Assembly: GCA_017883165.1 (NCBI GenBank)
Contig: JADGOC010000006.1
Span: 1 to 57,035 of the forward strand
Length of the DNA stretch: 57,035 nucleotides
Reading direction: 5' to 3'
From: Acidobacteriota bacterium
Lineage (GTDB): Bacteria; Acidobacteriota; Vicinamibacteria; Vicinamibacterales; CAVVIG01
Part shown: positions 44,487-57,033 of the stretch, piece by piece
How the letters are laid out: the number at the start of each line of letters is the position of its first letter
Numbering within the stretch: the stretch's first letter is position 1
Program-made: the position numbers and the translations under genes
The notes under the pieces: generated by a model
The model's input: the letters and a program-made list of their open reading frames with translations, nothing else
Told to the model about the DNA's origin: nothing
Databases searched by the model: none

Positions 44487-46895
44487 ATGGACTCGAGGAG
44501 CGCGGCACGCTTCGCTGTCGCGGCCTGCGCGATGCTCCTGGCGTCATCTCTCCTCCACGCCCAACCCATCCGCTCGGTCGTCGTCGATCAAACCGGCCTG
44601 CCGCTTCCGGGTGTCCGCATCGACGTCCATCGAGGCGCCCAGATCATCCAGACGCTCACGACTGCCGCGGACGGCACATTCGAGCTCGCGCCTGGAGAGC
44701 CGAGCGACATGGTCGAAGTGGCGCTCGAAGGATTCGAGACCATCCGGGTGCCGCGTGTGCAGGCCAATCGGATTGTGCTCCCGATCGGACGCGCGAGCGA
44801 GGTAACCGAGGTCGTCGCCTCCGCGCTGACCTCTTCGGGCTCGGCGATGGAGCACCTCGGCAGCACGATGTCGGCGCCGCTGGCGCAGCGTCTGCCGACG
44901 ATTCGGCCGCACATTCTCCAATCGTTGCCGCTCCTGCCGTCGGTCGTCCGCGGCCGCGACGGTCTGCTCCGGATCGGCGGGACGCGCCCGCATGAATCGA
45001 GTCTGTGGATCGACGGCTTCGATGTGACCGATCCGGTCAGCGGCACCACGGCGATCGACTTGCCGGACGAGAGCGTGAAGGGCATGGGCGTCGTTCGCGA
45101 TCCGATCTCGGCAATGTTCAACGGCGTCTTGGGATCGATGGCGTCGATCGAAACGACAGCCGGCGGAGACCAGTTCAAGGCGGGCGTGCAGGGGTTCATC
45201 CCGCGCCCGCGGTTGAACAGCCGATACGGATTGGGCCGCATCGAGGCGTTTTTCCCGCGCGCCTACGCCAGCGGCCGCGTGGGCGTCGCGCACTTCTTCG
45301 CGTCCACGGAAGTCAATTTCGAGCGCGTGCCGGTGCCCGGCGTCACGACCTCGCGCGGCAATCCCGCCTCAGGCGCGACCGGCGTCGTCTCGTTCGCGCG
45401 CGTGGACTTCACCGTCTCGCCGCGCCACACGATCACGCTCGAAGGGCTGTTCATGCCGGGAAGCACGGCCCTTTCCGGGCTCAGCCCGTTGCAGCGGCCG
45501 GAAGCGTCGCCCGACGTCCGCTCGCGCGATCTCTTTGCCGGCTTCGTCGATCGGTTTGTGCTGGGTCCGTCGCAACTGCTCACCGTTCGCATCGGATGGA
45601 TGGCGCACGGCACGACGATTGGCGCGGGTGGCTCCGGGCCGTCCATCTCGAGCCCGAGCGGATGGAGCCAGAACTGGTTCTCGACGGTCGACACGTGGGG
45701 CACGCGGCGCTCGGCCTCGATCACGTGGGATCGCGCGGGGATGTCGGCGCTCGGCGCGCACACGGTCTCGCTCTCCGGCGCCTTTCAGATGCGGTCGATG
45801 ACCGGCACGCTCGCGCATCAGCCGATTCACATCCTGGACGATGGCGGACGGTTGACGCGGCTGATTGAGTTCGCGCCGCTCGACCGCCAGCTCGCCGTGG
45901 GAGATACGACCGGCGGCGTCGGCGTGCGCGATCTCTGGGACGTGAACCGTCACCTGCAGATCGATCTGAACCTGCGGTTCGACGCGTCGGCCTCGAGCTC
46001 GGTCGCGTCGCCGCGCATCGCCGTGCGCTACGCCCTGGACGCAGACGGCCGGACCACGCTGAAAGCCAGCGCGGGACGGTTCGTCGGCCTCGCGCCGCTC
46101 GACGCGCTCGCGTACGCGCAGTACCCCGCGAGGACCGACACGTCCTTCGATCCCTCGACCGGCACGCCGATTCGATCGGTCGTGTACCAACCGGAGAGCC
46201 GGGCGCTCGAGCTGCCGCACGCGGACGGCATCGCACTGGAAATCGAGCGCCGGCTTCGCCGGGGGCTGGAAGCGCAGGCCGCCGTGAGGCAACGGCGCGG
46301 CAGCCTGCTGCCAACGGTCGACGTGCCGGCGGCAGGAGGAACGGTGCTGCTGGCCAGCACCGGCCACAGCGTGTATCGCGAGCTGCAGCTCTCGCTCAGG
46401 CAAACGTGGAGCCCGGACACGCAGGCCTTCGTCAGCTACGTGTTCGCGACGTCGCGCGGCGAGCTGAACGACTTCGGCTCACTCTTCACGCGACTTGCCG
46501 CGCCGCTGCTTGAGCCTGGCGGCATGGCGCCGACGCCCACCGACGTCACCCATCGTCTTCGCGGATGGGCCACCGTCGCGCTTCCGCGCCGCGTCGTCGT
46601 GTCCCCGGCCGTCGAGTGGCGGACCGGCTTCCCGTATTCGATTCAGGATGTCTATCGCCACTATCTCGGAGCGCCCAACAGCGAACGATTTCCGGCGCAG
46701 TTCACGACCGACCTCACCGTCTTCAAGACGTTCGATCTGTTCGCGCGGAAAATGGACCTCGGCCTGCAGGTGTTCAACCTGACGGATCACTTCAACCCGC
46801 GCGACGTGATCGCCGTCACGCCGTCGGCACAGTTCGGCGAGTTGACGAACAGCGTCGGCGTCACGCTCGCCGGTTACATGCAGATTCGGTGGTAA
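44487..46895 (+). CDS. TonB-dependent receptor-like protein with carboxypeptidase-regulatory domain
   Basis: An 802-residue outer-membrane protein. Signal peptide at about residues 1-26 (LLASSLLHAQ). A CarboxypepD_reg-like domain follows (about 28-80, DQTGLPLPGVRIDVHRG), then a plug region (about 110-190: SLPLLPSVVRGRDGLLRIGG, SSLWIDGFDVTDPVSG) and a barrel from about 200 to the C-terminal tryptophan (MQIRW). This is the Oar-like layout common in Acidobacteriota. It probably imports or binds a large substrate, possibly a glycan or peptide. No SusD partner is seen. Confidence 0.88.
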   Translation: MDSRSAARFAVAACAMLLASSLLHAQPIRSVVVDQTGLPLPGVRIDVHRGAQIIQTLTTAADGTFELAPGEPSDMVEVALEGFETIRVPRVQANRIVLPIGRASEVTEVVASALTSSGSAMEHLGSTMSAPLAQRLPTIRPHILQSLPLLPSVVRGRDGLLRIGGTRPHESSLWIDGFDVTDPVSGTTAIDLPDESVKGMGVVRDPISAMFNGVLGSMASIETTAGGDQFKAGVQGFIPRPRLNSRYGLGRIEAFFPRAYASGRVGVAHFFASTEVNFERVPVPGVTTSRGNPASGATGVVSFARVDFTVSPRHTITLEGLFMPGSTALSGLSPLQRPEASPDVRSRDLFAGFVDRFVLGPSQLLTVRIGWMAHGTTIGAGGSGPSISSPSGWSQNWFSTVDTWGTRRSASITWDRAGMSALGAHTVSLSGAFQMRSMTGTLAHQPIHILDDGGRLTRLIEFAPLDRQLAVGDTTGGVGVRDLWDVNRHLQIDLNLRFDASASSSVASPRIAVRYALDADGRTTLKASAGRFVGLAPLDALAYAQYPARTDTSFDPSTGTPIRSVVYQPESRALELPHADGIALEIERRLRRGLEAQAAVRQRRGSLLPTVDVPAAGGTVLLASTGHSVYRELQLSLRQTWSPDTQAFVSYVFATSRGELNDFGSLFTRLAAPLLEPGGMAPTPTDVTHRLRGWATVALPRRVVVSPAVEWRTGFPYSIQDVYRHYLGAPNSERFPAQFTTDLTVFKTFDLFARKMDLGLQVFNLTDHFNPRDVIAVTPSAQFGELTNSVGVTLAGYMQIRW

Positions 46896-46904
46896 CCGCT
46901 CGGC

Positions 46905-48143
46905 CTAGTAATACCGCTTCGGCAGATCGAGTACGACGCGGCGGCGCGCGAGGCTGGTGAGCCCCGAGGACAGCCTCACGGAAGGAAGCGCGTCGATGGC
47001 GGCGCGCTCCACGAGGACCTCCTCGGGCAGGTACAACCGCGCGGCACCGTACTCTTCCTCGTAATCCTCCGACGGAAATCGCAGACGCAGCCGCGCCGGG
47101 TCGCCGTCAGGCTCAACGTCATACAGCGGGTTGACCCGGAATTCCCCCCGCGCCTCCGACGGCTCCTCGAGCGGGTACGGACGCCACACGTCGGCGCGCC
47201 GCGACGCGATGATCGTCAGCGCGAGGTCGGCGTCGAGCGCAGCGGTGCCGTGCGCCTGCGACAGATCGAGTGGGCCGCCGGCGACAATCTCGCCGAGCAG
47301 CGTGCGCTCGGCGAAGAGCCGCGGCGTCATCTCGTCGAACAGATCGCGATACGCGCCCGGCGGCAGCGGCATGCCGGCTGACGGATTCCACTGCAGCGCG
47401 TTGTGCGCGTGCGTCACCACGACCGCGCCCGTGTCGCCGGCCACGCGCATCATTTCCGACGCAAGCAGACGCTTGGTCCAGATGTAATGAAAGGCGTCCG
47501 AACAGACGACGAAGCCAAACGCGTGTGTCTTGAAGGGCAGCGGGGCGTTGCCATCGCAGCACACCGGCTCGCAGCCGGGCGCCGTGAAGCGGCGCGCCAG
47601 CCACAGCTTCGCGAAATAGAAATCGGCGACGACGGGCGCCGGCGATGAGAGGTCCATGAGGGATCTCGTCAGGTGGCCCGATCCGCCGCACACGTCGAGC
47701 CCGCGCCCTCCGCCTCGCAGCGTCGTCGCCGCCACCGCGCGCACGACCGCCTCGGCGACCAGATACGTCGGATCGGAAAAGCGATAGAGGAAGTAGCCGC
47801 CTTCGAACCCCGGGCCGAGCGCGTCGACCACCTCGCGGTAGGTCGCCGTGGCTGACGCGGCCGTCTCCTCGAAGCGCGCCGCCTGCTGCTCGTCGTCGAG
47901 CGCGAACATCCGGCGCGCCGCGAGATCGGGCCGGCCGGCTTCGATCTGTTCGCGCGCGGCGACCGCGGCCGGATCGAGATGCATCACCGGGATGCCGGCG
48001 ACGATGGGAAAGACGCAGCAGTGGCAGCCGAGGATCGCGTTGGTGATCTCGCCGTCCTCGCGCTCGTGAAACGAGGATTCGACGAGCTCCAGCCGTCCGC
48101 CGCAGTAAGGGCAGCGAAGCAGGTCGAGCGTGCCGTCTCTCAC
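46905..48143 (-). CDS. zinc-ribbon SAM-dependent methyltransferase
   Basis: A 412-residue protein from GTG 48143; the frame opens further upstream, but that part is antisense-like and lies inside the PIG-L gene. An N-terminal zinc ribbon (LLRCPYCGG and, 25 residues on, GCHCCVFP) resembles the Trm112/UPF0434 type. A class I methyltransferase follows with motif I GLDVCGGSGHL and VVCSDAFHYIW further on. The last ~90 residues are a separate beta-rich part. It is the sixth and last gene of the glycan operon, 10 nt after the PIG-L gene. Substrate unknown; a glycan or lipid intermediate is the contextual guess. Confidence 0.83.
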   Translation of the reverse strand: MRDGTLDLLRCPYCGGRLELVESSFHEREDGEITNAILGCHCCVFPIVAGIPVMHLDPAAVAAREQIEAGRPDLAARRMFALDDEQQAARFEETAASATATYREVVDALGPGFEGGYFLYRFSDPTYLVAEAVVRAVAATTLRGGGRGLDVCGGSGHLTRSLMDLSSPAPVVADFYFAKLWLARRFTAPGCEPVCCDGNAPLPFKTHAFGFVVCSDAFHYIWTKRLLASEMMRVAGDTGAVVVTHAHNALQWNPSAGMPLPPGAYRDLFDEMTPRLFAERTLLGEIVAGGPLDLSQAHGTAALDADLALTIIASRRADVWRPYPLEEPSEARGEFRVNPLYDVEPDGDPARLRLRFPSEDYEEEYGAARLYLPEEVLVERAAIDALPSVRLSSGLTSLARRRVVLDLPKRYY

Positions 48144-48153
48144 GTCTGTGTGC

Positions 48154-48987
48154 TCACGCTTGCTTGCGCTCGCGGACCGGCTCGCCGAGCCGCTCGAGGA
48201 CGGCATCGCCGGAGGTATCGATGGGCGCTCGGCGGAACTGCTCGGTGCCGAGATACCGGCGCGCGTCGGATTCGTCGATCCAGGCGAACGGATTGTGCGG
48301 TCCCATCTGCGTCCGGTGGCAGCGCAGCGCGGCAAGCTTGCGCGAGGCCCAGTCGCGCACGTCGATGGTGAAGGTCGGCGGCTCGGCGGCGTCGCCGAAG
48401 GCGTCAGGCTCGATGCCCCAGAAGCTCGAGTCGGGCGGCGCGCCCCCTTTGGCGTGCGCCGCTTCGACCACCGCGCGCATCAGGCCCTGCGCCATCGTCA
48501 CATAGTAGAGCGGCGGGGCGTCGGCGCCGAGTGAGAGGACGGCGGTGAAGGTGCGTTCGTGGATGCCGATGTGATCGAGATGCCAGTAGAGGCCGTCGTT
48601 GCCGAACGTGATGACGGCGTCTGGACGATAGCGCCGGATCGCGAGGACGATTTCTTCGTGCAGCTGCGGCACGTTGGCCCAGCGCAGATCGCCGTCGTGA
48701 TGATCGAGGATCGTGACCTCGGCGAGGCCGAGAACCGCGGCGGCCTCGGCGAGCTCGCGGACGCGCACGCGCCCGAGGTCGCCGTCCGGCACGAGCGAGA
48801 GGTCGCTGATCGAGCCCGATTCGCCGCGCGTGGCGCAGAGCAGCACGACCTTCGCGCCGGCGTCGGCCGCGCGCGCCAGCGTGCCGCCGCACGCGAGTGA
48901 CTCATCGTCTGGATGCGCGAAGACCGCGAGGATCGTCCGTCCGGCGAGCAAGCCGGCCCTGTGAGGGTCAGCAGGATCATCGGCCAT
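48154..48987 (-). CDS. PIG-L/LmbE-family deacetylase
   Basis: A 277-residue zinc hydrolase from ATG 48987, which overlaps the upstream glycosyltransferase by 11 nt. The zinc motif is AVFAHPDDESLACGG (HPDD), followed by LLCATRGESGSI and the second motif YWHLDHIGIHERTF. The family deacetylates N-acetylglucosamine-type sugars on lipids or thiols (BshB, MshB, PIG-L). Distinct from bshB1 at 21843 and too diverged to be a recent copy. In this operon it may remove acetyl from a GlcNAc-containing intermediate. Confidence 0.9.
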   Translation of the reverse strand: MADDPADPHRAGLLAGRTILAVFAHPDDESLACGGTLARAADAGAKVVLLCATRGESGSISDLSLVPDGDLGRVRVRELAEAAAVLGLAEVTILDHHDGDLRWANVPQLHEEIVLAIRRYRPDAVITFGNDGLYWHLDHIGIHERTFTAVLSLGADAPPLYYVTMAQGLMRAVVEAAHAKGGAPPDSSFWGIEPDAFGDAAEPPTFTIDVRDWASRKLAALRCHRTQMGPHNPFAWIDESDARRYLGTEQFRRAPIDTSGDAVLERLGEPVRERKQA

Positions 48988-50071
48988 GGGAGGCTCCATG
49001 CGCGGCGACGAGCCGGCGATAGACGGCGATGTACTCATCGACCATGCGTTCCACGCCGAAGCGCATGACCGCACGCTCTCGGACTCGCCGTCGATCGAGA
49101 TCGAAGACGCGCGGCAGCCCGTTGACCATCTCCTCGAGATCCTGGAACACGAAGCCGGTGACGCCCTCGTCCACGACCTCGCGGACCGCGCCGCGATCGA
49201 GCGCCGCGACCGGCGTGCCGCACGCCATCGCTTCGGCGAGCACGAGGCCGAACGGCTCGCGGGCCTGGATCGGGTAGAGCAGCGCGCGCGCCCCGCCGTA
49301 CAGCTTCACTTTCGCCGGATGATCCGCTTCGCCGTAATAGATGACGCGGGTGCCGTCGACATGCGGCGCCACCTTGTCGCGGTAGTACTCGTCTTCGGCG
49401 GCGGCGAGAATCAGGCGCATGCCGACGCGTTTGGCCACTTCGATCGCCTGCAGGACGCCTTTGCCGTCGGTGAAGCGGCCGAGAAAGAGCAGATAGTCGT
49501 CCGGCTTCGCCTGAAACGTGAAGGAGTCGGTGTCGATGCCGTGGAGCACCGTGCCGATGACGTTGAGGCCGTGCAGCAAGCGCGCCTGCTCGTTCGAAAT
49601 CGCGACGAAGGGCGCCTCGGGGTAGCGCGACCACAAGCCGATCTCCGCTTCGCTCGGCGAATGATGAAGCGTCTGGACCATTGGCGTCGGCGACAGACGC
49701 GCGAAGGCGAGCGACATCGGGTAGTACGCCGCTTCGTAATGGATGATGTCGAAGTCGCGCGCCAGCTCGACGGCCGCGGCGAGGTTCAACATTTCGTACA
49801 GCTCCCACGGCCACATGTTCTCGTCGTGCCAGTAGCCTTGCTTGTAGATCGCGTGCAGCTTGGCCTTCGTCTTCGAATCGGCCGTGGCGAAGAGCGTGAC
49901 GTCCTGGCCTTTCGCGACCAGCCCTTCGGTGAGCAGCGACGTCATCAGCTCGACCGATCCCGACTTGAGCGGCGGCACCTCGGTGGCGACCGGGGCGATA
50001 TGCGCGATTCGCAAGGGTGCGTCGCTGGTGGCTGGAGGCTGGTGGCTGGTGGCTGGTCGGTCGGTACTCAT
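48977..50071 (-). CDS. GT4-type glycosyltransferase
   Basis: A 364-residue enzyme from ATG 50071, in ATGA overlap with the gene upstream. It shows LRIAHIAPVATEVPPLKSGS at the first Rossmann fold, FDIIHYEAAYYPMSL, the acceptor/donor motif FLGRFTDGKGVLQAIEVAKR, and the C-terminal EPFGLVLAEAMACGTPVAAL (ExxxxxxxE). Between the start and the first fold lie ~15 residues (PATSHQPPATSD) encoded by a 7-nt tandem repeat, which the family does not need. A longer frame to 50401 is antisense-like and was discarded. Confidence 0.9.
   Translation of the reverse strand: MSTDRPATSHQPPATSDAPLRIAHIAPVATEVPPLKSGSVELMTSLLTEGLVAKGQDVTLFATADSKTKAKLHAIYKQGYWHDENMWPWELYEMLNLAAAVELARDFDIIHYEAAYYPMSLAFARLSPTPMVQTLHHSPSEAEIGLWSRYPEAPFVAISNEQARLLHGLNVIGTVLHGIDTDSFTFQAKPDDYLLFLGRFTDGKGVLQAIEVAKRVGMRLILAAAEDEYYRDKVAPHVDGTRVIYYGEADHPAKVKLYGGARALLYPIQAREPFGLVLAEAMACGTPVAALDRGAVREVVDEGVTGFVFQDLEEMVNGLPRVFDLDRRRVRERAVMRFGVERMVDEYIAVYRRLVAAHGASHGR
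50025..50059. repeat. five-unit heptanucleotide repeat CTGGTGG in the glycosyltransferase start
   Basis: CTGGTGG, CTGGAGG, CTGGTGG, CTGGTGG and CTGGTCG in perfect 7-nt phase (plus-strand sense). It begins only 12 nt downstream of the glycosyltransferase ATG on the minus strand. Each unit gained or lost shifts the reading frame by one base. Confidence 0.9.
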
Positions 50072-51186
50072 CTGCACGCTACCTCGAGAAGGGCGGGAAG
50101 CACGCGGTCGGCGCCGAAATGATCGCGCGCGATGTCGGCCGCGCACCGGGCGTGCCGGTCGTAGTCGCCGTTGATGCGGTCGATGCCGGCCAGCGCCTCC
50201 TCGGGCGACGAGAACGCGAGCAGCCCCTCGCCCGACGGCAGATGCGCCGTCCAGCCCGTGTCCTGCACGAGCGCCGGACGGCCGGCGGCCAGATAACACG
50301 CCGTGCGATCGCTGAACCAGCCCGATCGCGTCGCGACGTAGGTGTGCTTGGCGACGCCGAACTCGGCCTTCGACCGCTGGATGAAATCGCGGTAGTCCCA
50401 CAGCGACCGCGAGATGCCCATCGCGTCCACCGTTGCCCAGCCGTGCTCGCGCAGGAGCGCCTGCGGGCCGTTGATCGCGAGCTCGAAGGGCTGCGTGGTC
50501 CGCGACGGCAGGTCGATGTACTTGATGAACTCCTGATCCTTGTTCCCGCCGACGTCGATGAAGCTCTCGATCTGCCAGGTCATCACGGTCGTGAAGCGAT
50601 CGCGCGGCGCGGCGTCAGTTCGCCACTCGTCGAGCGTCACCGGCTGCCACGTCTTGTGCCAGATGAAATCACCGGTCGGTACCGGCGAGGCGGCGGTGCC
50701 GATGTTCGATCCGAAGGTGAACAGATGATCGAACCGGCGGAAGAACTCGACGTACCACGGCTCGGCCTTGGCGATGGCGAGCTGCGTGAAGGCCGGATCG
50801 GAATCGATGAACGCCTTGCTGGGAATACGCGCGTACTCGTCGCGCCAAAACCACGATCCGCCAGACAGATTAAGAAAGAGGTCCGCGTCGGCGCAGTATC
50901 GCCGCACGTCCTCGGCGCTGCGGCCATGGTAGGTGCCGTCGTAGTTGACGAACGCCCAGCGATCGCCCAGGCCGAACGGCTCGAGCGCGTTGTGAATGTA
51001 GGATGTTCCGTAGCTCGGGTCGGTGGCGCGGGTGTTCTGCACCGGATCGTAAACACACTCGCCCGTGTCCTCGATGTAGAAGACCTCGTGGCCGAGCGCG
51101 CGCAGGCCGAGCAGATACATCAGCGAACACCAGGTGACGCCGCCGAATGGATAGCGGGCAATAATCCCCGCGACCAGGATCTTCAT
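50068..51186 (-). CDS. CgeB-like glycosyltransferase
   Basis: A 372-residue protein from ATG 51186 (MKILVAGIIARYPFGGVTWC). The N-terminal fold contains YLLGLRALGHEVFYIEDTGE. The C-terminal half has KAEFGVAKHTYVATRSGWFS, DRTACYLAAGRPALVQDTGW and FSSPEEALAGIDRINGDYDR, the glycosyltransferase group-1 or CgeB pattern where a nucleotide-sugar is bound. It starts 13 nt after the ABC exporter and overlaps the GT4 gene by ATGA. The sugar and the acceptor are unknown. Confidence 0.85.
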   Translation of the reverse strand: MKILVAGIIARYPFGGVTWCSLMYLLGLRALGHEVFYIEDTGECVYDPVQNTRATDPSYGTSYIHNALEPFGLGDRWAFVNYDGTYHGRSAEDVRRYCADADLFLNLSGGSWFWRDEYARIPSKAFIDSDPAFTQLAIAKAEPWYVEFFRRFDHLFTFGSNIGTAASPVPTGDFIWHKTWQPVTLDEWRTDAAPRDRFTTVMTWQIESFIDVGGNKDQEFIKYIDLPSRTTQPFELAINGPQALLREHGWATVDAMGISRSLWDYRDFIQRSKAEFGVAKHTYVATRSGWFSDRTACYLAAGRPALVQDTGWTAHLPSGEGLLAFSSPEEALAGIDRINGDYDRHARCAADIARDHFGADRVLPALLEVACR

Positions 51187-51199
51187 GAGAGTGCAGATT

Positions 51200-53032
51200 T
51201 CAACGTTTTGCAGCCTCGATGAGCTCGTCCACGCTTTCCGGATCGTCCAGCGACTTGCCGACCGACAGCCGCGCACACATCCGGCGATAGAGCTGGCTGG
51301 TCTTGAGCAGCTCGTCGTGTCTGCCCTGCGCGACGATCCGGCCGCCGTCGAGTACGAGAATCCGGTCGGCGTCGCGCACGGTCGACAAGCGGTGCGCGAT
51401 GACAATCGTCGTCCTTCCCGCGCGCAGCCGCCGCAGCGCGGCGAACACGATCTCTTCCGAGATCGCGTCGAGCGAGGACGTCGGCTCGTCGAGGATGAGA
51501 ATCGGCGCGCCCTTGATGATCGCGCGCGCGACGCTCAGCCGCTGGCGCTCGCCGCCCGACAGCCCGCCGCCCGCTTCGGCGATCTCCGTGTCGTACCCCT
51601 TCGAGAGACGCGAGATGAAGTCGTGCGCGTGCGCCGCGCGCGCCGCGTCTTCGATGTCCTGCGGCGTCGCGTCGAGCCGGCCGTACCTCAAGTTGTCGCC
51701 GATCGTGCCCTGGAAGAGCATCGGCTCCTGCAGCACGATCGCGATCTTGTCGCGCAGCGACCGCACACGGTACTTCTGCACATCCACGCCGTCGACGAGC
51801 ACGGAGCCTGACGAGGCGTTGTAGAACCGCGGGATCAGGCTGACCAGCGTCGTCTTGCCGGCGCCGGTCAGCCCAACGAGCGCGACCATCTCCCCGGGCT
51901 TCGCGTCGAACGTGATGTGTCGCAGCACCTCGGTCCCGTCGGGGTACTTGAACCCGACGTCGTCGAACTGAATGTTGCCCGTGACGTGGGTCGCGTCGAG
52001 AGCGTCTGGCGCGTCGAGGGTTTCTGGCAGCATCTCGAAGATCGCGCGCACGCGCTTGGCGCCGGCGAGCGCGCCCTGCAACTGGCCCGTCGTGTGCGCA
52101 ATCGCCGACAACGGCCCGTACACCATGCCGAGGTACGACAGCACGACCGTGAGCTGGCCGAGCGTCATCTGGCCCCGCAGGACGTGCTGGCCGCCCACGA
52201 TCAGGACGAGCGCCGTTCCAAAAATGACGATCGTGCTGACGACGACCGAGAAGAGCGACTCCTGCCAGGTAATGCTGATGCGCGCCTTCATCACCGCGTC
52301 GCCGGTCTGGGAGAAGCGCCGGGCCTCGTACGGCTCGCGCGCAAAGCTCTTCACGAGGCGCATCGCGGCGAAGACCTCGTACAGGCGCTCGACGAGCTTC
52401 GATTCGAGCTCCTTCACGCGCTCGGTCCGGAACACCAGCGTCGTCGTGTAATAGCGAAGACAGATGTACAGGAACGGCACCACCGTGAGCGCAAGCAGCG
52501 AGATCGTCAGGTCGATGTGCGCGAGCCAGCCGAACATCACGACGAGCGTGATGACCGACGAGGCGAGCGGAAACATGCCGCTCATGACGAGGTTCTCGAT
52601 CGAATAAGCGTCGGTCTCGAGCCGGTAGACGGCGTCGCCGGTGTTGGTCGTGACGTGATGATGCAGGGCGAGCGCCTGCAGATGCTCGAACAGCTTGAAG
52701 CGCAGGTCGTACACCATCCGCTGGCCCGTATCCACCTGCACTTGCGTGTGGAACATCGACGCGAATTGGTTGGTCACCTGCAGCACGACGCCCGCAAGCA
52801 CGACGATGACGAGCAGCGAGAGGTCGTGATGGCCGGCCACGCGATCGACCCAGCCCTGAATGAATGGCCGGAACGGATGTCTGAGCAGCACGTGATCCAC
52901 GATGACCGCCAGCGGCCAGGGCTGCAGCGCTCCCAGCCCGATCTCGAGGAGCGAGAGAAACACGAGCAGCCACACGCGGCCCCGATACGGCCGCAAGAAC
53001 GACAACGTCCACGGGATGAGCGTCTGTGGCAT
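51200..53032 (-). CDS. MsbA-type ABC exporter (fused permease-ATPase)
   Basis: A 610-residue ABCB-like half-transporter from ATG 53032. Six membrane segments occupy about residues 15-310, and the ATPase about 345-590. Motifs: Walker A GLTGAGKTT, Q-loop VLQEPMLFQGT, signature LSGGERQRL, Walker B ILILDEPTSSLD, H-loop IVIAHRLSTV; all intact. The ATG shares one base with the stop of the giant fusion protein (TGATG). Family members flip lipids, lipid-linked glycans or peptides. Among glycosyltransferases, a lipid-linked glycan is the natural guess. Confidence 0.94.
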   Translation of the reverse strand: MPQTLIPWTLSFLRPYRGRVWLLVFLSLLEIGLGALQPWPLAVIVDHVLLRHPFRPFIQGWVDRVAGHHDLSLLVIVVLAGVVLQVTNQFASMFHTQVQVDTGQRMVYDLRFKLFEHLQALALHHHVTTNTGDAVYRLETDAYSIENLVMSGMFPLASSVITLVVMFGWLAHIDLTISLLALTVVPFLYICLRYYTTTLVFRTERVKELESKLVERLYEVFAAMRLVKSFAREPYEARRFSQTGDAVMKARISITWQESLFSVVVSTIVIFGTALVLIVGGQHVLRGQMTLGQLTVVLSYLGMVYGPLSAIAHTTGQLQGALAGAKRVRAIFEMLPETLDAPDALDATHVTGNIQFDDVGFKYPDGTEVLRHITFDAKPGEMVALVGLTGAGKTTLVSLIPRFYNASSGSVLVDGVDVQKYRVRSLRDKIAIVLQEPMLFQGTIGDNLRYGRLDATPQDIEDAARAAHAHDFISRLSKGYDTEIAEAGGGLSGGERQRLSVARAIIKGAPILILDEPTSSLDAISEEIVFAALRRLRAGRTTIVIAHRLSTVRDADRILVLDGGRIVAQGRHDELLKTSQLYRRMCARLSVGKSLDDPESVDELIEAAKR

Positions 53033-56000
53033 CAACCGCCCTTCCTCGTTGGCGCCCCGAGCGGTAGCGGCGGCACCAGGTTCGGCGTCAGGTTCGGAAT
53101 GTTCAGCACCACGAGCTTGTCGAGGCTCGAGTCCGCGACGTAGAGCCATCGCCGTTTCGGCGCGAAGGCCACGCGCGTCGGCGCGCCGAAGACGACGCGA
53201 CCCTCGTCGCTCACGTTGCGCATGATCCCGTCGGGGCCGACCGCGCGCACCAGCCCGTTGTAGTAGTCGGCGATAAAGATCGTCAGCGCGCCGCCCGGTT
53301 CGGACATCAGGGCGATGCCGGCGGCTCCCGCCAGCATGGCATCGGTCGCCGGACCGTCGTCGCCAGAATTCCCCCATTTGCCGTTCCCGGCGACGGTGCT
53401 GATGATGTGGGTCTTCGCGTCAACCCTGCGGACACGGTTGTGATGCAGGTCCGCGATGTACAGGTCGCCGTTGCGAGGGTCGAGCGCGACGTCGCTCGGC
53501 ATGTTGAGGTGAGCCGCGGTCGCCGGCCCGCCATCGCCGACTGGCTGGTTGTCGCCGGGGGTACCGTCCCCCGCAACCGTGTGGATGAGGCCTGTCGCGT
53601 GATCGATCATGCGGATGCGGTAATTCAGCGTGTCGGCGATGTAGATGTCGCCGTTGGACGCCGCGGCAACCGCGTTCGGCGTGTTGAGCGCCGCTTCGGT
53701 CGCCGGCTTCTCGTCGCCGTCGTACCCGCTCTCGCCCGATCCCGCGATCGTGGTGATGATGCCCGTCGGCCTGTCGACGCGGCGGATCCGATCGTTGTGT
53801 GAATCGGCGACGATCAGGTCGTCGTCGGGCGCGATCGCCACGCCGTCCGGCGTGTCCAGCTGCGCATCGGTCGCCAGCCCGTCGTCGCCCGAAAAGCCGG
53901 TGCCGAGGTCGTTGTTGCCGACGACGGTCGTGATGATCGTGTTCCGCGCGTCGATGCGCCGGATGACGTCGTTGTTCGAGTCGGCGAAATAGATGTCGCC
54001 GCTCGGGGCGACGACGATGCCGCCGGGCGTGTCGATCCACGCCTCCAACGCCGGTCCGTAGTCGCCGGCGTATCCCTTGCGCGCGCCGATCACTTCGACG
54101 GTCGCCGCTTCGCGCAGCATGAAGGTGCTCGCGCCGAGCGCGAGAATCATCACGACGAAGATGATGGCGCTGCGGAGTCCGTACATTCTGAGCAGCGACG
54201 GCGCGAGAAGCGGCGTCCGCGCCGGCCCGGACTTCATCGCCACCATCCCCTGGCTGAGCGCCACCTGATGGACACCGCGGCGGACGGTCGCCGTGGCCTG
54301 GGCGGTCCGCCATGCGGCGAAGCCGAAGGCGATAAGCGTCAGAAGGGCGGCCACACCTCCCGCCAGCAGACGCCCTCCCGGCGGTGGCCGCCGCGACGCG
54401 ACGTTGGCGCTGACCACCGCGAGCAGCGCCGCGCCCAGCACGACCGCGGTCACCACGCCGAACGTCGTCGGGCGCAGATGCGTGCTGACGCGCAGGAGGC
54501 CCTTGCCCGCGCCGTGATCCTCGACGAGCGCGCGGATGTCGAGCCACGCCCAGCGGCCGACGAAGACGCTGACGTCGCGATCGTCGGACCACCCCTCGTC
54601 GATCTCGATCGTCCGCACCGCGCGCGACCGCCGCAACCACTCGGTGACTTTGGCGAGCACGCGATCGGCCGACGTCCAGCTCTCGCTCCAGTAGCGGTCT
54701 TCGGTGACGCTGCCTGAGATCAGCAGCAGCGCCCGCCACGCCTCCTTGAGCGACGGACGCGGCCCGCCGCTCGTCTGACGCTCCGACTGCGGCAGCGCGA
54801 CTTCCGGCGGCGCGAGCAGGCCGCGGACGTGCCCGCGCAGCCGCGCGATCGGCTGGAGGAAGTGCAGATACGCGACGATCGTGCGATACCACAGCCGGCT
54901 ACCCGGCAGCGAATCGACGTCGGATCGCATCGCATACGTCAGGTTCTTCGCGAGGGTGAGCGCGATGCCGACCAGACCCGTGCCGAGCAGGAGCGCCACC
55001 GCCCAGCGATGCTGGTCGGTCGCCGCCGCCGTCGCGACGCCCGCAATCGCCAGCACGAACGACAACACCTGCCACTTGATGGAATGGGGCAGGAAGGCGA
55101 ACGGGTGGACGTCGGTGCGGTAGACGGACGGAAACGCCGCCGTGCCCCAGACGCCGGCGTTGATGCGCGTGCTCCAGAGCGATCGGACAAACGGCAGCGG
55201 GCTGTAGATGCGGCCGTGCCACAGCATGTGCCCGTCGAGGAATTTGTCGGGATGATGCGCCATCAGCCACGTCTCGCCCTCGCCGTAGCCGACCTGCTGC
55301 CGCCAGTACGCCTTCACGCTGGACCGATGGTGGTGCCAGACGAGCGCCGCCGCCGCGAAGCCGATCTTCCAGCCGCGCGCCTGCAGCCGCCAGCACACAT
55401 CCACATCGTCGCCCGCGCGGAGATAGATCGGATTAAAGCCGCCGATCGCGAGGAGCGCCTCGCGCCGGAACGCCATGTTGCAGCCCGGCACGTGTTCCGC
55501 CGTGCGATCGTCGAGCAGCACGTGCGTCGGCCCACCGGGCGCGCGCGCGATCGACTGCGCCATCGGCGGATCATCAGGCGGCACCACGTTGGGCCCGCCG
55601 GAGGCGACGACGTCGGAGTTGAGGAACGGCTGAACGAGAAACGTCAGCCAGTCGCGATCCGCGCTGACGTCGGCGTCCGTGTAGGCGACGATGTCGCCGA
55701 CGGCGGCCGCGAGGCCGACGTTACGCGCCGCGCTCAACCCGCCGTTGGCAATGTCGATGACGCGGACGCGCGGATGCTGATGGCCGATCTCGCTCGTGCG
55801 ATCGCGCGATCCGTCGTTCACGAGAATGATCTCGTAATCCGGATAGGTCAGCTTGTCGAGCGAGGCCAGGCAGCCCTCGAGCGTGTCGGCCGCGTTGTAG
55901 GCGCAGACGACGACCGAGATGCGGGGCCAGGTGCGTTGAACGGCCGGCGGAAACGGCGCGTTGTCGAACGCCGCTTGCACGGCGAGCGCGGCCGGCTTGG

Positions 56001-56913
56001 TGTTCCGCTCGCGATCGACCAGCCCGAACGACCAGTCCACGACCGGATGCCCGCCGCGCCACCACTCGTCGGTCCACGCGAAGGCGATCGCGCCGCAGGC
56101 GCCCTCCTCGAACGCGGCGCGGATGTGCATCGCCGTGATCTCGGCCTGTCCCGCTTCACCTTCGCGAATGCTGTCGGCGCCGGCCTCGGCCAGCAGCAGC
56201 GGCTTCTGGCCGGCGATGTGCTGCAGGCGCGCGATGTACGCGCGCAGCTCCGGCTCGCGGTGCAGGTAGAGGTTGAAGGCGCAAACGTCGAAGAAGGAGA
56301 GATCGAGAAACTCCGTCGGCGGAAAGTTGACGTAGGTGAAGAGCGCGCCGGGCGCCGCGTCCTTGGCGTCCTGATAGATCTCGCGCAGGAAGCGCTCGAC
56401 GCGGACGCGCCCGTGCCACCGCACGACGGGCGCGGGAATCTCGTTGCCCAGCGCGAGCATGAGCACGGCCGGGTGATCGGCGATCTCGGCGACCTTGCCC
56501 GCGAGCTCGCGCCGAATCGCCCGCTTCAGCCGTCTATCGTCGAGAAACGCGACGTGCTGCGACCAGGGCAGGCCCACCATGACGCGCAAGCCGAGCCGGG
56601 CCGCCTCGTCGAGCAGCTCGCGCCGCGGTGGCGTGTAGACGCGGACCGTGTTGATGCCGAACTCCGCCATCAGGCGGAAGTCCCGAGCGATTTGCTGAGC
56701 TGGAGGGAACTGGTAGCCTTCGGCGTCGGGCGCAAATGTCCCGTACGTCACGCCCTTGACGAGAAAGCGCTCGTCGCCCGCGCGCAGAAATTTTCCGTCC
56801 GCGACGATCCGGGCGGCCCGCGCCGGCGCCGTGTCGCGACGAAGATCCGGGGCAGCCTGAACGGCAGTACTCACAGGGTTGTGTGACGCCTCGCATTGTA
56901 GCGAGGCAAACAC
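53032..56913 (-). CDS. multidomain glycosidase-like / GT2 / NHL membrane protein
   Basis: A 1293-residue protein. Residues ~35-315 form a GH2-type TIM barrel with an acid/base motif LALGNEIPAP (E158) and nucleophile motif LLLAEAGADS (E243). Residues ~331-560 are a GT2 glycosyltransferase (VVVCAYNAADTLEGCLASLD, YTDADVSAD with D413 and D415, RAGDDVDVCWRLQARGW). Membrane segments lie near 613-632, 637-656, 818-838, 847-868 and 914-933. Residues ~950-1270 are NHL repeats (GDIYFADSNNDVIRRID and four more) of a beta-propeller. The start is GTG 56913 or GTG 56874. It is the first gene of the six-gene operon and presumably builds or extends a glycan at the membrane. This combination is unusual; its activities are not proven. 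Confidence 0.85.
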   Translation of the reverse strand: MFASLQCEASHNPVSTAVQAAPDLRRDTAPARAARIVADGKFLRAGDERFLVKGVTYGTFAPDAEGYQFPPAQQIARDFRLMAEFGINTVRVYTPPRRELLDEAARLGLRVMVGLPWSQHVAFLDDRRLKRAIRRELAGKVAEIADHPAVLMLALGNEIPAPVVRWHGRVRVERFLREIYQDAKDAAPGALFTYVNFPPTEFLDLSFFDVCAFNLYLHREPELRAYIARLQHIAGQKPLLLAEAGADSIREGEAGQAEITAMHIRAAFEEGACGAIAFAWTDEWWRGGHPVVDWSFGLVDRERNTKPAALAVQAAFDNAPFPPAVQRTWPRISVVVCAYNAADTLEGCLASLDKLTYPDYEIILVNDGSRDRTSEIGHQHPRVRVIDIANGGLSAARNVGLAAAVGDIVAYTDADVSADRDWLTFLVQPFLNSDVVASGGPNVVPPDDPPMAQSIARAPGGPTHVLLDDRTAEHVPGCNMAFRREALLAIGGFNPIYLRAGDDVDVCWRLQARGWKIGFAAAALVWHHHRSSVKAYWRQQVGYGEGETWLMAHHPDKFLDGHMLWHGRIYSPLPFVRSLWSTRINAGVWGTAAFPSVYRTDVHPFAFLPHSIKWQVLSFVLAIAGVATAAATDQHRWAVALLLGTGLVGIALTLAKNLTYAMRSDVDSLPGSRLWYRTIVAYLHFLQPIARLRGHVRGLLAPPEVALPQSERQTSGGPRPSLKEAWRALLLISGSVTEDRYWSESWTSADRVLAKVTEWLRRSRAVRTIEIDEGWSDDRDVSVFVGRWAWLDIRALVEDHGAGKGLLRVSTHLRPTTFGVVTAVVLGAALLAVVSANVASRRPPPGGRLLAGGVAALLTLIAFGFAAWRTAQATATVRRGVHQVALSQGMVAMKSGPARTPLLAPSLLRMYGLRSAIIFVVMILALGASTFMLREAATVEVIGARKGYAGDYGPALEAWIDTPGGIVVAPSGDIYFADSNNDVIRRIDARNTIITTVVGNNDLGTGFSGDDGLATDAQLDTPDGVAIAPDDDLIVADSHNDRIRRVDRPTGIITTIAGSGESGYDGDEKPATEAALNTPNAVAAASNGDIYIADTLNYRIRMIDHATGLIHTVAGDGTPGDNQPVGDGGPATAAHLNMPSDVALDPRNGDLYIADLHHNRVRRVDAKTHIISTVAGNGKWGNSGDDGPATDAMLAGAAGIALMSEPGGALTIFIADYYNGLVRAVGPDGIMRNVSDEGRVVFGAPTRVAFAPKRRWLYVADSSLDKLVVLNIPNLTPNLVPPLPLGAPTRKGG
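56888..56907. promoter_or_regulatory. 7-bp inverted repeat around TACAAT at the operon start
   Basis: GCCTCGC (56888-56894) and GCGAGGC (56901-56907) flank ATTGTA, which is TACAAT on the minus strand. A second TACAAT lies at 56916-56921, and TTGATA at 56920-56925 gives a -35 with a 19-nt spacer for the inner box. If the inner box is used, the repeat is an operator; if the outer one is used, it is a hairpin just before GTG 56874. Confidence 0.45.
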
Positions 56914-56963: not shown

Positions 56964-57033
56964 GGGGTCGGGAGCCTTTTTCAGTTTCTGCACCCCTTGT
57001 GGTACGCAGAAACTGAAAAAGGCTCCCGACCCC
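56964..57033. repeat. 28-bp perfect inverted repeat, REP/REPIN-like
   Basis: Two 28-nt arms (56964-56991 and 57006-57033) are exact inverse complements, with a 14-nt spacer. The arm starts GGGGTCGGGAGCC, then T5, then CAGTTTCTGC. The length and perfect pairing point to a dispersed palindromic element or a very strong hairpin. It lies between the edge of the window and the glycan operon. A transposase of the RAYT type is not in the window. Confidence 0.85.

Follow-up and report, generated by a model that had tools for sequence, protein, structure and literature searches.

What do six closely packed genes make when they encode a glycosidase fused to a glycosyltransferase, an exporter, two further glycosyltransferases, a deacetylase and a methyltransferase? 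The question is raised by contig JADGOC010000006.1 (C332) of an Acidobacteriota draft genome (4.24 Mb, 334 contigs), which in its entirety forms the window analysed here (57,035 bases). All six genes are located on the minus strand between positions 46905 and 56913. Their starts and stops bear out the coordinates and strand given in a preliminary description of this DNA, and the junctions of -1 (TGATG), +13, -4 (ATGA), -11 and +10 nucleotides (nt) are identical to those it listed. The proposal developed below, with a probability of about 0.5, is that the six gene products together synthesise a single short oligosaccharide, modify it and export it. Most likely this product would be rich in glucose and partly de-N-acetylated and methylated; synthesis would take place in the cytosol, the glycoside hydrolase (GH) domain would cut or transglycosylate the chain, and an ATP-binding cassette (ABC) protein of the ABCB type would export it.

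Conservation of the gene unit

The loci of relatives were scanned with the six window proteins; close loci were counted with at least 8.5 kb downstream of the head gene, distant ones with at least 4 kb. Lack of a conserved gene order in relatives would, by the preliminary description, have spoken against the operon; that objection fails, as 18 of the 28 close loci keep all six genes in order on one strand. Three more carry all but the methyltransferase; the rest comprise one locus with the first four genes, one with the head and ABC genes only and five with the head gene only. Three of the loci set aside by these limits (L057, L062, L124) also carry all six. L071, scored as head gene only, holds all six genes with the head gene split into two frames; L077, counted among the 18 complete loci, has its head gene split in this way too. 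L060 has the head gene only, and for L058 (G337) and L125 (G054) the other five genes lie elsewhere in the genome. Short overlaps recur at many junctions of the relatives' loci, where gene starts are estimated. The head protein was matched, NHL part included, in all 26 other searched genomes of the window's family, in some as pieces on separate contigs. At E 1e-30 a match was obtained in 41 of the 60 genomes searched, the window's own among them, several of those outside the family matching in the NHL or GT2 part only. Across the phylum its GH-GT2 part (glycosidase plus family 2 glycosyltransferase, GT) is present in 21 of 297 genomes, own included (E 1e-80).

Conserved order could reflect a shared neighbourhood or a shared pathway. 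In 120 genomes of the order, own included, the CgeB-like glycosyltransferase (E 1e-40) was matched in 44 and the GH-GT2 part (E 1e-80) in 47; both are present in 43, the head gene alone in four, the CgeB-like gene alone in one and neither in 72. Outside the window's family the corresponding numbers are 25, 3, 1 and 72 (101 genomes). Fisher's test gives p 1e-26 and 3e-19, respectively, values which overstate the evidence because the genomes of the order are related. In ten genomes of family f8 (L140-L149) the head and CgeB-like genes are separated; on the chromosome-size contig G337:C1 the two matches are 2.2 Mb apart. Eight of these ten stretches have the ABC, CgeB-like, GT4, PIG-L and methyltransferase genes on one strand without the head gene (for L141 and L146 the exact order could not be resolved), and the remaining two end at a contig edge, after the GT4 gene or within the PIG-L gene. 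In other f8 genomes the head gene is still linked (L124). The five-gene clusters together with the co-occurrence thus tell apart 'same pathway' from 'same neighbourhood', and these comparisons indicate that the six genes are one functional unit. Gaps of about 0.7-3 kb in five of the f8 clusters (L141, L143, L145, L146, L149) suggest inserted genes.

Bacteroidota, Verrucomicrobiota (Opitutaceae) and other Acidobacteriota possess a GH-GT2 protein without the NHL part. An ABC gene follows at most 3.5 kb downstream in 11 of 16 distant loci, and in L087 and L089 a CgeB-like gene is located between the two. The tailoring genes at these loci are different: hexapeptide transferases, a polysaccharide pyruvyl transferase, an FkbM methyltransferase and, nearby, a beta-ketoacyl synthase. 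The core of the unit therefore consists of the GH-GT2 protein, the exporter and usually the CgeB-like glycosyltransferase; PIG-L plus methyltransferase is a cassette seen in the window's order. GH-GT2, ABC and CgeB-like genes occur in Segetibacter koreensis, Terrimonas pollutisoli and Flavihumibacter stibioxidans, and GH-GT2 plus ABC genes in Hymenobacter busanensis. As this trio recurs in Bacteroidota and an Opitutaceae contig, glycan assembly and export, as originally read from the window, is well supported by sequence comparison.

Some further loci deserve mention. A beta-ketoacyl synthase lies near GH-GT2, ABC and CgeB-like genes in L080 (17937-19157, Pfam) and L084 (21144-22385, by resemblance), from Terrimonas and an Acidobacteria contig. 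Three genomes of the window's family (L128, L129, L130) encode a second, divergent GH-GT2 protein, 44-47% identical and without NHL, each stretch with an ABC and/or a CgeB-like gene. Close relatives of the family-type version also appear in contigs titled Gemmatimonadales or Gemmatimonas (L051, L053, L093), by transfer or misbinning, and the family-type version itself in contigs titled Bifidobacterium breve and Acidimicrobiia (L046, L049), titles which are probably wrong.

The head protein

The head gene (53032..56913, GTG start, 1293 amino acids, aa) encodes a GH-A/GT2/transmembrane/NHL fusion according to Pfam and its relatives. The true start may be about 10 codons downstream of the annotated GTG; near-full-length relatives of the same family are mostly 66-77% identical, and their matches start at residues 7-30. 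Domains of all six proteins were called with Pfam and NCBIfam models, each with its own cut-off. In the head protein PF02836 scores 24.5 bits (cut-off 21), PF00535 109.7, PF25021 100.4 and PF01436 69.7. The preliminary description had asked for a structure prediction of the fusion; the AlphaFold model of residues 1-935 (mean predicted local distance difference test, pLDDT, 84.1; predicted template modelling score, pTM, 0.76) displays a TIM barrel, a GT2 domain and membrane helices.

Clan GH-A is defined by a TIM barrel with a catalytic Asn-Glu on strand 4 and a Glu on strand 7, and its enzymes use retaining chemistry. The domain at residues 34-318 (55960..56814; PF02836 and fold) has such a barrel in the model, with N157-E158 and E243 at these places by fold and alignment. 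N157, E158, E243, R91, Y216, W280 and the GT2 aspartates do not vary among the 46 aligned head proteins, a set which takes in Acidobacteriota, Bacteroidota and an Opitutaceae contig. This alignment (A1) retains 46 of 54 usable head proteins after removal of 12 of 66 rows as truncated, split or NHL-only; A2 keeps 34 of 54 and A3 37 of 48. In the wider 66-row alignment N157 is found in 63 of 64, E158 in 62 of 64 and E243 in 64 of 66 sequences; its two NHL-only rows (L097, L100) enter these counts and were kept out of the models and the tree. Because the catalytic residues are invariant, the GH part is probably active, working with retention as a glycosidase or a transglycosylase. 'GH-like', the term first applied, was correct as to the presence of a glycosidase-type domain and understated what is probably an active enzyme.

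The assignment to a single GH family is less clear, with PF02836 just above its cut-off and nearly equal fold scores for GH157 and GH2 chains. Among the matches listed, LaGH157 is closest (Z 32.2, 2.4 A, 294 residues, 19% identity) and GH2 glucuronidases follow in a near tie (Z about 30 versus 32). A profile search aligns E243 with LaGH157 E224, the residue mutated in 9g4n, and N157-E158 with N131-E132 when counted along the printed alignment. By their titles the LaGH157 structures (9fz9, 9g4n, 9g5g) were solved with laminari-oligosaccharides; the enzyme is presumably a beta-1,3-glucanase.

The GT2 domain (residues 330-560, 55234..55926; PF00535) carries D413/D415, D502/D503 and W537-x-Q539-Q540 as invariant residues. 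Processive synthases have a QxxRW motif. The preliminary description spoke of polymerisation, which this domain does not bear out: a clear QxxRW is lacking, and the best NCBIfam model, MftF (TIGR03965, 162.3 bits over residues 323-557, equivalog cut-off 280 missed), represents an enzyme adding up to nine glucoses. MftF makes beta-1,4-glucan chains of at most nine glucoses, and 2-O-methylglucose is present in the product (PMC7491314).

Hydropathy and model helices place a first transmembrane hairpin at residues 611-659 (54937..55083), a second at 813-871 (54301..54477) and a fifth helix at 905-934 (54112..54201), which would take the NHL part to the periplasm. Between the hairpins the model shows a small alpha/beta domain (residues 722-815, 54469..54750) with invariant W742, D780, E798 and H800; Pfam has no match in residues 686-935. 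Hydropathy shows no hydrophobic helix before or between the GH and GT2 domains, which are therefore predicted to be cytosolic, and as the number of transmembrane helices is odd the NHL part is predicted to be periplasmic. The topology should thus be, by prediction, GH and GT2 in the cytosol and NHL in the periplasm.

The NHL beta-propeller (53032..54072; PF25021, PF01436) has six NHL-like repeats by eye, and its closest solved chains are teneurin-like proteins. The fusion with NHL described initially exists in the window, yet as a general trait it does not hold. Outside the window's family one of 28 order genomes with GH-GT2 has a frame above 1,200 aa, and another has NHL in the next frame (G370, L152). 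A tree of 64 sequences shows NHL at three separate points; this takes four changes by parsimony, at least two of them being forced by well supported branches (for L071 and L077 the label was assigned by hand after the following frame; L053 and L076 are cut before NHL). With such repeated changes NHL is an optional accessory, and NHL as a defining part of the unit was rejected.

Exporter, downstream enzymes and borders

The second gene (51200..53032) encodes an ABCB-type half exporter of 610 aa. As described at the outset, membrane and ATPase domains (PF00664, PF00005) reside on a single chain, and the ATPase motifs are kept in at least 95% of 38 sequences. Among the best 25 of 186 NCBIfam matches the top models are MsbA_rel, CphA_assoc_ABC and MsbA_lipidA, none over its cut-off; with MsbA_lipidA (TIGR02203) at 406.1 bits and a cut-off of 602, the similarity designates a related superfamily only. 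The best solved half transporter is Sav1866 (336 bits), below several full-length ABCB proteins.

The third protein (50068..51186) has 372 aa, and 372-373 aa in all 30 close relatives used. Its model (pLDDT 94.2) is a GT-B fold with PimA (Z 24.0) and BshA (Z 23.5) on top and many rows tied. It is indeed a glycosyltransferase; the CgeB label rests on PF13524 at 25.0 bits with a cut-off of 25, so GT-B glycosyltransferase is the better name. The fourth gene (48977..50071) encodes a glycosyltransferase of family GT4 (73.5 bits) which matches 7fg9 over 337 residues with 268 bits. This structure and 7fga belong to TeGSS, a glucosylsucrose synthase that transfers from uridine diphosphate (UDP)-glucose to soluble oligosaccharides (PMC9909042). 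The UDP-binding R179 and K184 of TeGSS are kept in 34 of 34 GT4 sequences, so UDP-glucose is likely the donor.

The deacetylating and methylating parts announced initially are also confirmed by conserved residues. The PIG-L zinc de-N-acetylase (48154..48987, 277 aa; PF02585 110 bits, cut-off 28.2) has the AHPDDE and HxDH motifs, and H25-P-D-D28 and H136-x-D-H139 are kept in at least 95% of 29 sequences. Among proteins of solved structure it is related to LnmX, diacetylchitobiose deacetylase and MshB. The last gene (46905..48143, GTG start, 412 aa; Pfam, NCBIfam) encodes a Trm112-like zinc ribbon joined to an S-adenosylmethionine-dependent methyltransferase. The ribbon, at 27.9 bits, stays under its model's cut-off of 77 with the four-cysteine pattern conserved; C11, C14, C40, C42, C43 and D150-x-C-G-G are kept in at least 95% of 22 sequences, and for the methyltransferase no solved relative was found at E 0.001.

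The head gene starts only 122 bases from the contig end, thus the upstream border of the unit is not visible in the window. The downstream border is set by a convergent plus-strand frame of 802 aa (PF25183 above its cut-off, PF13620 below) which ends at 46895, 9 bases before the unit's last stop. Between the head gene and the contig end lies a perfect inverted repeat (56964..57033, no strand) whose 28-nt arms enclose a loop of 14 nt, and a 21-base part of its arm has exactly one further copy in the genome (contig C60). A promoter scan, uninformative with 0.7 hits expected by chance, detected none. Eight terminator-like sites within the unit (4.6 expected, standard deviation 2.1) were rejected as breaks. 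A mobile element was likewise rejected, the GH-GT2 part having no match in 72,556 plasmid records (E 1e-40). Upstream of the head gene in L038, L044, L048, L050, L057, L076 and L077 are histidine-biosynthesis genes; those from L038, L048 and L057 were identified as hisI, hisG, hisD, hisC, hisB, hisF and a hisA-type gene (hisC and hisA under their cut-offs), and the other four loci have the same clusters. A 251-254-aa protein without assigned family is encoded between the his genes and the head gene in L038, L056, L076 and L109. An upstream gene was rejected as member of the unit; the his neighbours suggest position, not function.

Product, alternatives and known systems

In the order of steps that we infer, the GT2 domain of the head protein would add sugars, probably glucose in beta-linkage, on the cytosolic side of the cytoplasmic membrane. 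The GH-A domain fused to it, cytosolic and probably active, would cut or transglycosylate the growing chain and thereby set its length, or release or cyclise it. The CgeB-like protein and the GT4 enzyme might then attach side sugars, PIG-L would deacetylate an N-acetylated sugar, and methylation of the product would fall to the zinc-ribbon enzyme. The ABCB protein, presumably as a homodimer, would move the completed oligosaccharide into the periplasm; there the NHL propeller may bind this product, the exporter or a partner in the envelope.

Several findings weigh against this reading, besides the relatedness of the genomes in the co-occurrence test. The full six in order are absent from 10 of 28 close loci. 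In L040, one of the five loci scored as head gene only, the ABC, CgeB-like and GT4 genes follow after a 5.8 kb insert (sulfatase, GT2, methyltransferase and a protein that matches PMT_2 below threshold), and some junctions exceed 100 nt (L038, L045, L109), starts being estimated there. 'Beta-glucan' is weak because GH2 beta-glucuronidases score about 30 in fold against 32 for GH157. The nearest solved ABCB relatives move many kinds of substrate, so the family says little on cargo. In the GT4 enzyme the TeGSS acceptor residue W10 is replaced by Ala (A29) in 34 of 34 sequences and Y18 by Ser (S37) in 33 and by Ala in one; sucrose is thus an unlikely acceptor, and the acceptor probably differs from that of TeGSS. 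Finally, PIG-L calls for an N-acetyl sugar, and a plain glucan has none.

In the synthesis of glycosylphosphatidylinositol, PIG-L acts on an early N-acetylglucosamine (GlcNAc)-lipid. By analogy, the glycosyltransferases might build a lipid headgroup, PIG-L deacetylate an early GlcNAc-lipid and the MsbA-like protein flip the product. A glycolipid was indeed part of the preliminary description, and it would agree with the MsbA-related model as best score of the ABC protein (among the best 25 of 186), with the resemblance of the CgeB-like fold to the lipid mannosyltransferase PimA (BshA being tied) and with the predicted membrane helices of the head protein. We nevertheless consider it unlikely. 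The six genes include neither an acyltransferase nor a lipid-carrier or sugar-1-phosphate transferase (the flanks were not annotated systematically), the GT4 enzyme is closest to one acting on free sugars, and an active cytosolic glycosidase is hard to fit. Sugar-1-phosphate transferases (PF02397) do exist elsewhere, with three matches in the own genome and presence in 26 of 27 family genomes, own included; conventional starter enzymes for surface polysaccharides hence exist beside the unit. Pfam and NCBIfam also bear out that the six genes contain no Wzx/Wzy or Wzm/Wzt set, the rest of the genome not having been searched with Wzx and Wzy models.

An osmoregulated periplasmic glucan, with the unit standing in for OpgGH or for a cyclic glucan synthase plus exporter and the GH domain as cyclase, appears improbable. 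In its favour, OpgG (MdoG, PF04349) is neither among the six proteins nor in 26 of 27 family genomes, own included (OpgH was not searched); the sole positive genome is a draft with 8% contamination. The Cgs-type domain PF10091, on the other hand, is present in 18 of 27 family genomes (27 matches; other Cgs domains were not searched), 14 of the 27 matches, in 13 genomes, being in frames of 2,775-2,911 aa. The own genome has a match too (G000:C130:11347-11979, in a 1,888-aa frame) and may thus already encode a route to cyclic glucans; simple replacement of cyclic glucans is disfavoured, and the unit as replacement of all cyclic glucan synthesis was marked down. PIG-L, moreover, would be left unexplained. 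Mycothiol and bacillithiol are formed by a GT4 enzyme followed by PIG-L, the gene order seen here, and the PIG-L protein scores 74-86 bits with the Mca, MshB and BshB1/2 models. All these scores are below the cut-offs (182-277 bits), a cysteine ligase is missing among the six and two further glycosyltransferases plus a glycosidase would be superfluous. A small exported glucosamine-containing metabolite of this kind is thus very improbable.

If the oligosaccharide reading is extended, a tentative view, less likely than not, is that of a separate glycan-export route. The cytosolic glycosidase of the GH-GT2 protein would transglycosylate the chain on the spot or gauge its length, and decorated oligosaccharides would be released by an ABCB half exporter with neither a lipid carrier nor a synthase channel. 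The core trio would be common to Acidobacteriota, Bacteroidota and Verrucomicrobiota, lineage cassettes (PIG-L/methyltransferase, acetyltransferases, pyruvyl transferase) would vary the decoration, and NHL would be a periplasmic arm in some lineages. If true, a whole family of mostly uncultured Acidobacteriota would gain a named, testable envelope glycan. The six genes stay linked in uncultured bacteria of soil and groundwater; because the named Bacteroidota strains carry the core, the product can be sought without a cultured host of the family. The head enzyme, a synthase architecture for which no assay was found, can be produced and assayed by itself.

In topical searches of an open-access library no description of the six-gene unit was found, in line with the initial remark that it resembles no described pathway. 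Its parts have known counterparts. LaGH157 shares fold and both catalytic residues with the head GH domain, yet is a separate 537-aa enzyme of 19% identity. TeGSS and the unit's GT4 enzyme agree in UDP-binding residues and differ in the acceptor site. MftF, the closest GT2 model, carries out oligoglucosylation and has a methylated glucose in its product; in contrast, the head GT2 is under the family cut-off, and MftF is a 470-aa enzyme acting on a peptide-derived cofactor (PMC7491314).

Two systems resemble the design as a whole. The glucan made by Cgs leaves the cytosol through an exporter of the ABC type. In the Cgs passages of the respective paper the processing domains are cytosolic and a transporter exports the glucan (PMC10901819), which also speaks for a periplasmic glucan. 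The likeness to the unit consists in one inner-membrane protein with cytosolic sugar-adding and processing domains plus a dedicated oligosaccharide exporter. The domains differ (GT84, cyclase and GH94 versus GH-A and GT2), Pfam finds no PF10091 in the head protein, and those passages mention no PIG-L, methyltransferase or NHL; because the families differ the head protein is not a member of Cgs. The nearest fused design found is the pseudomonad GH17-GT2 'Orphan'/NdvB protein, a TIM-barrel glycosidase ahead of a GT2 in one membrane protein, which is proposed to be a cyclic-glucan synthase with a cut-and-cyclise step (PMC10237404), again in favour of a periplasmic glucan. There, GH17 is modelled as periplasmic and joined via a transmembrane region to a BcsA-like GT2, whereas the head protein's GH2/GH157-like domain is joined directly to GT2 and predicted to be cytosolic. 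By analogy, then, the unit may work like a cyclic-glucan synthase with its exporter, built from different domains.

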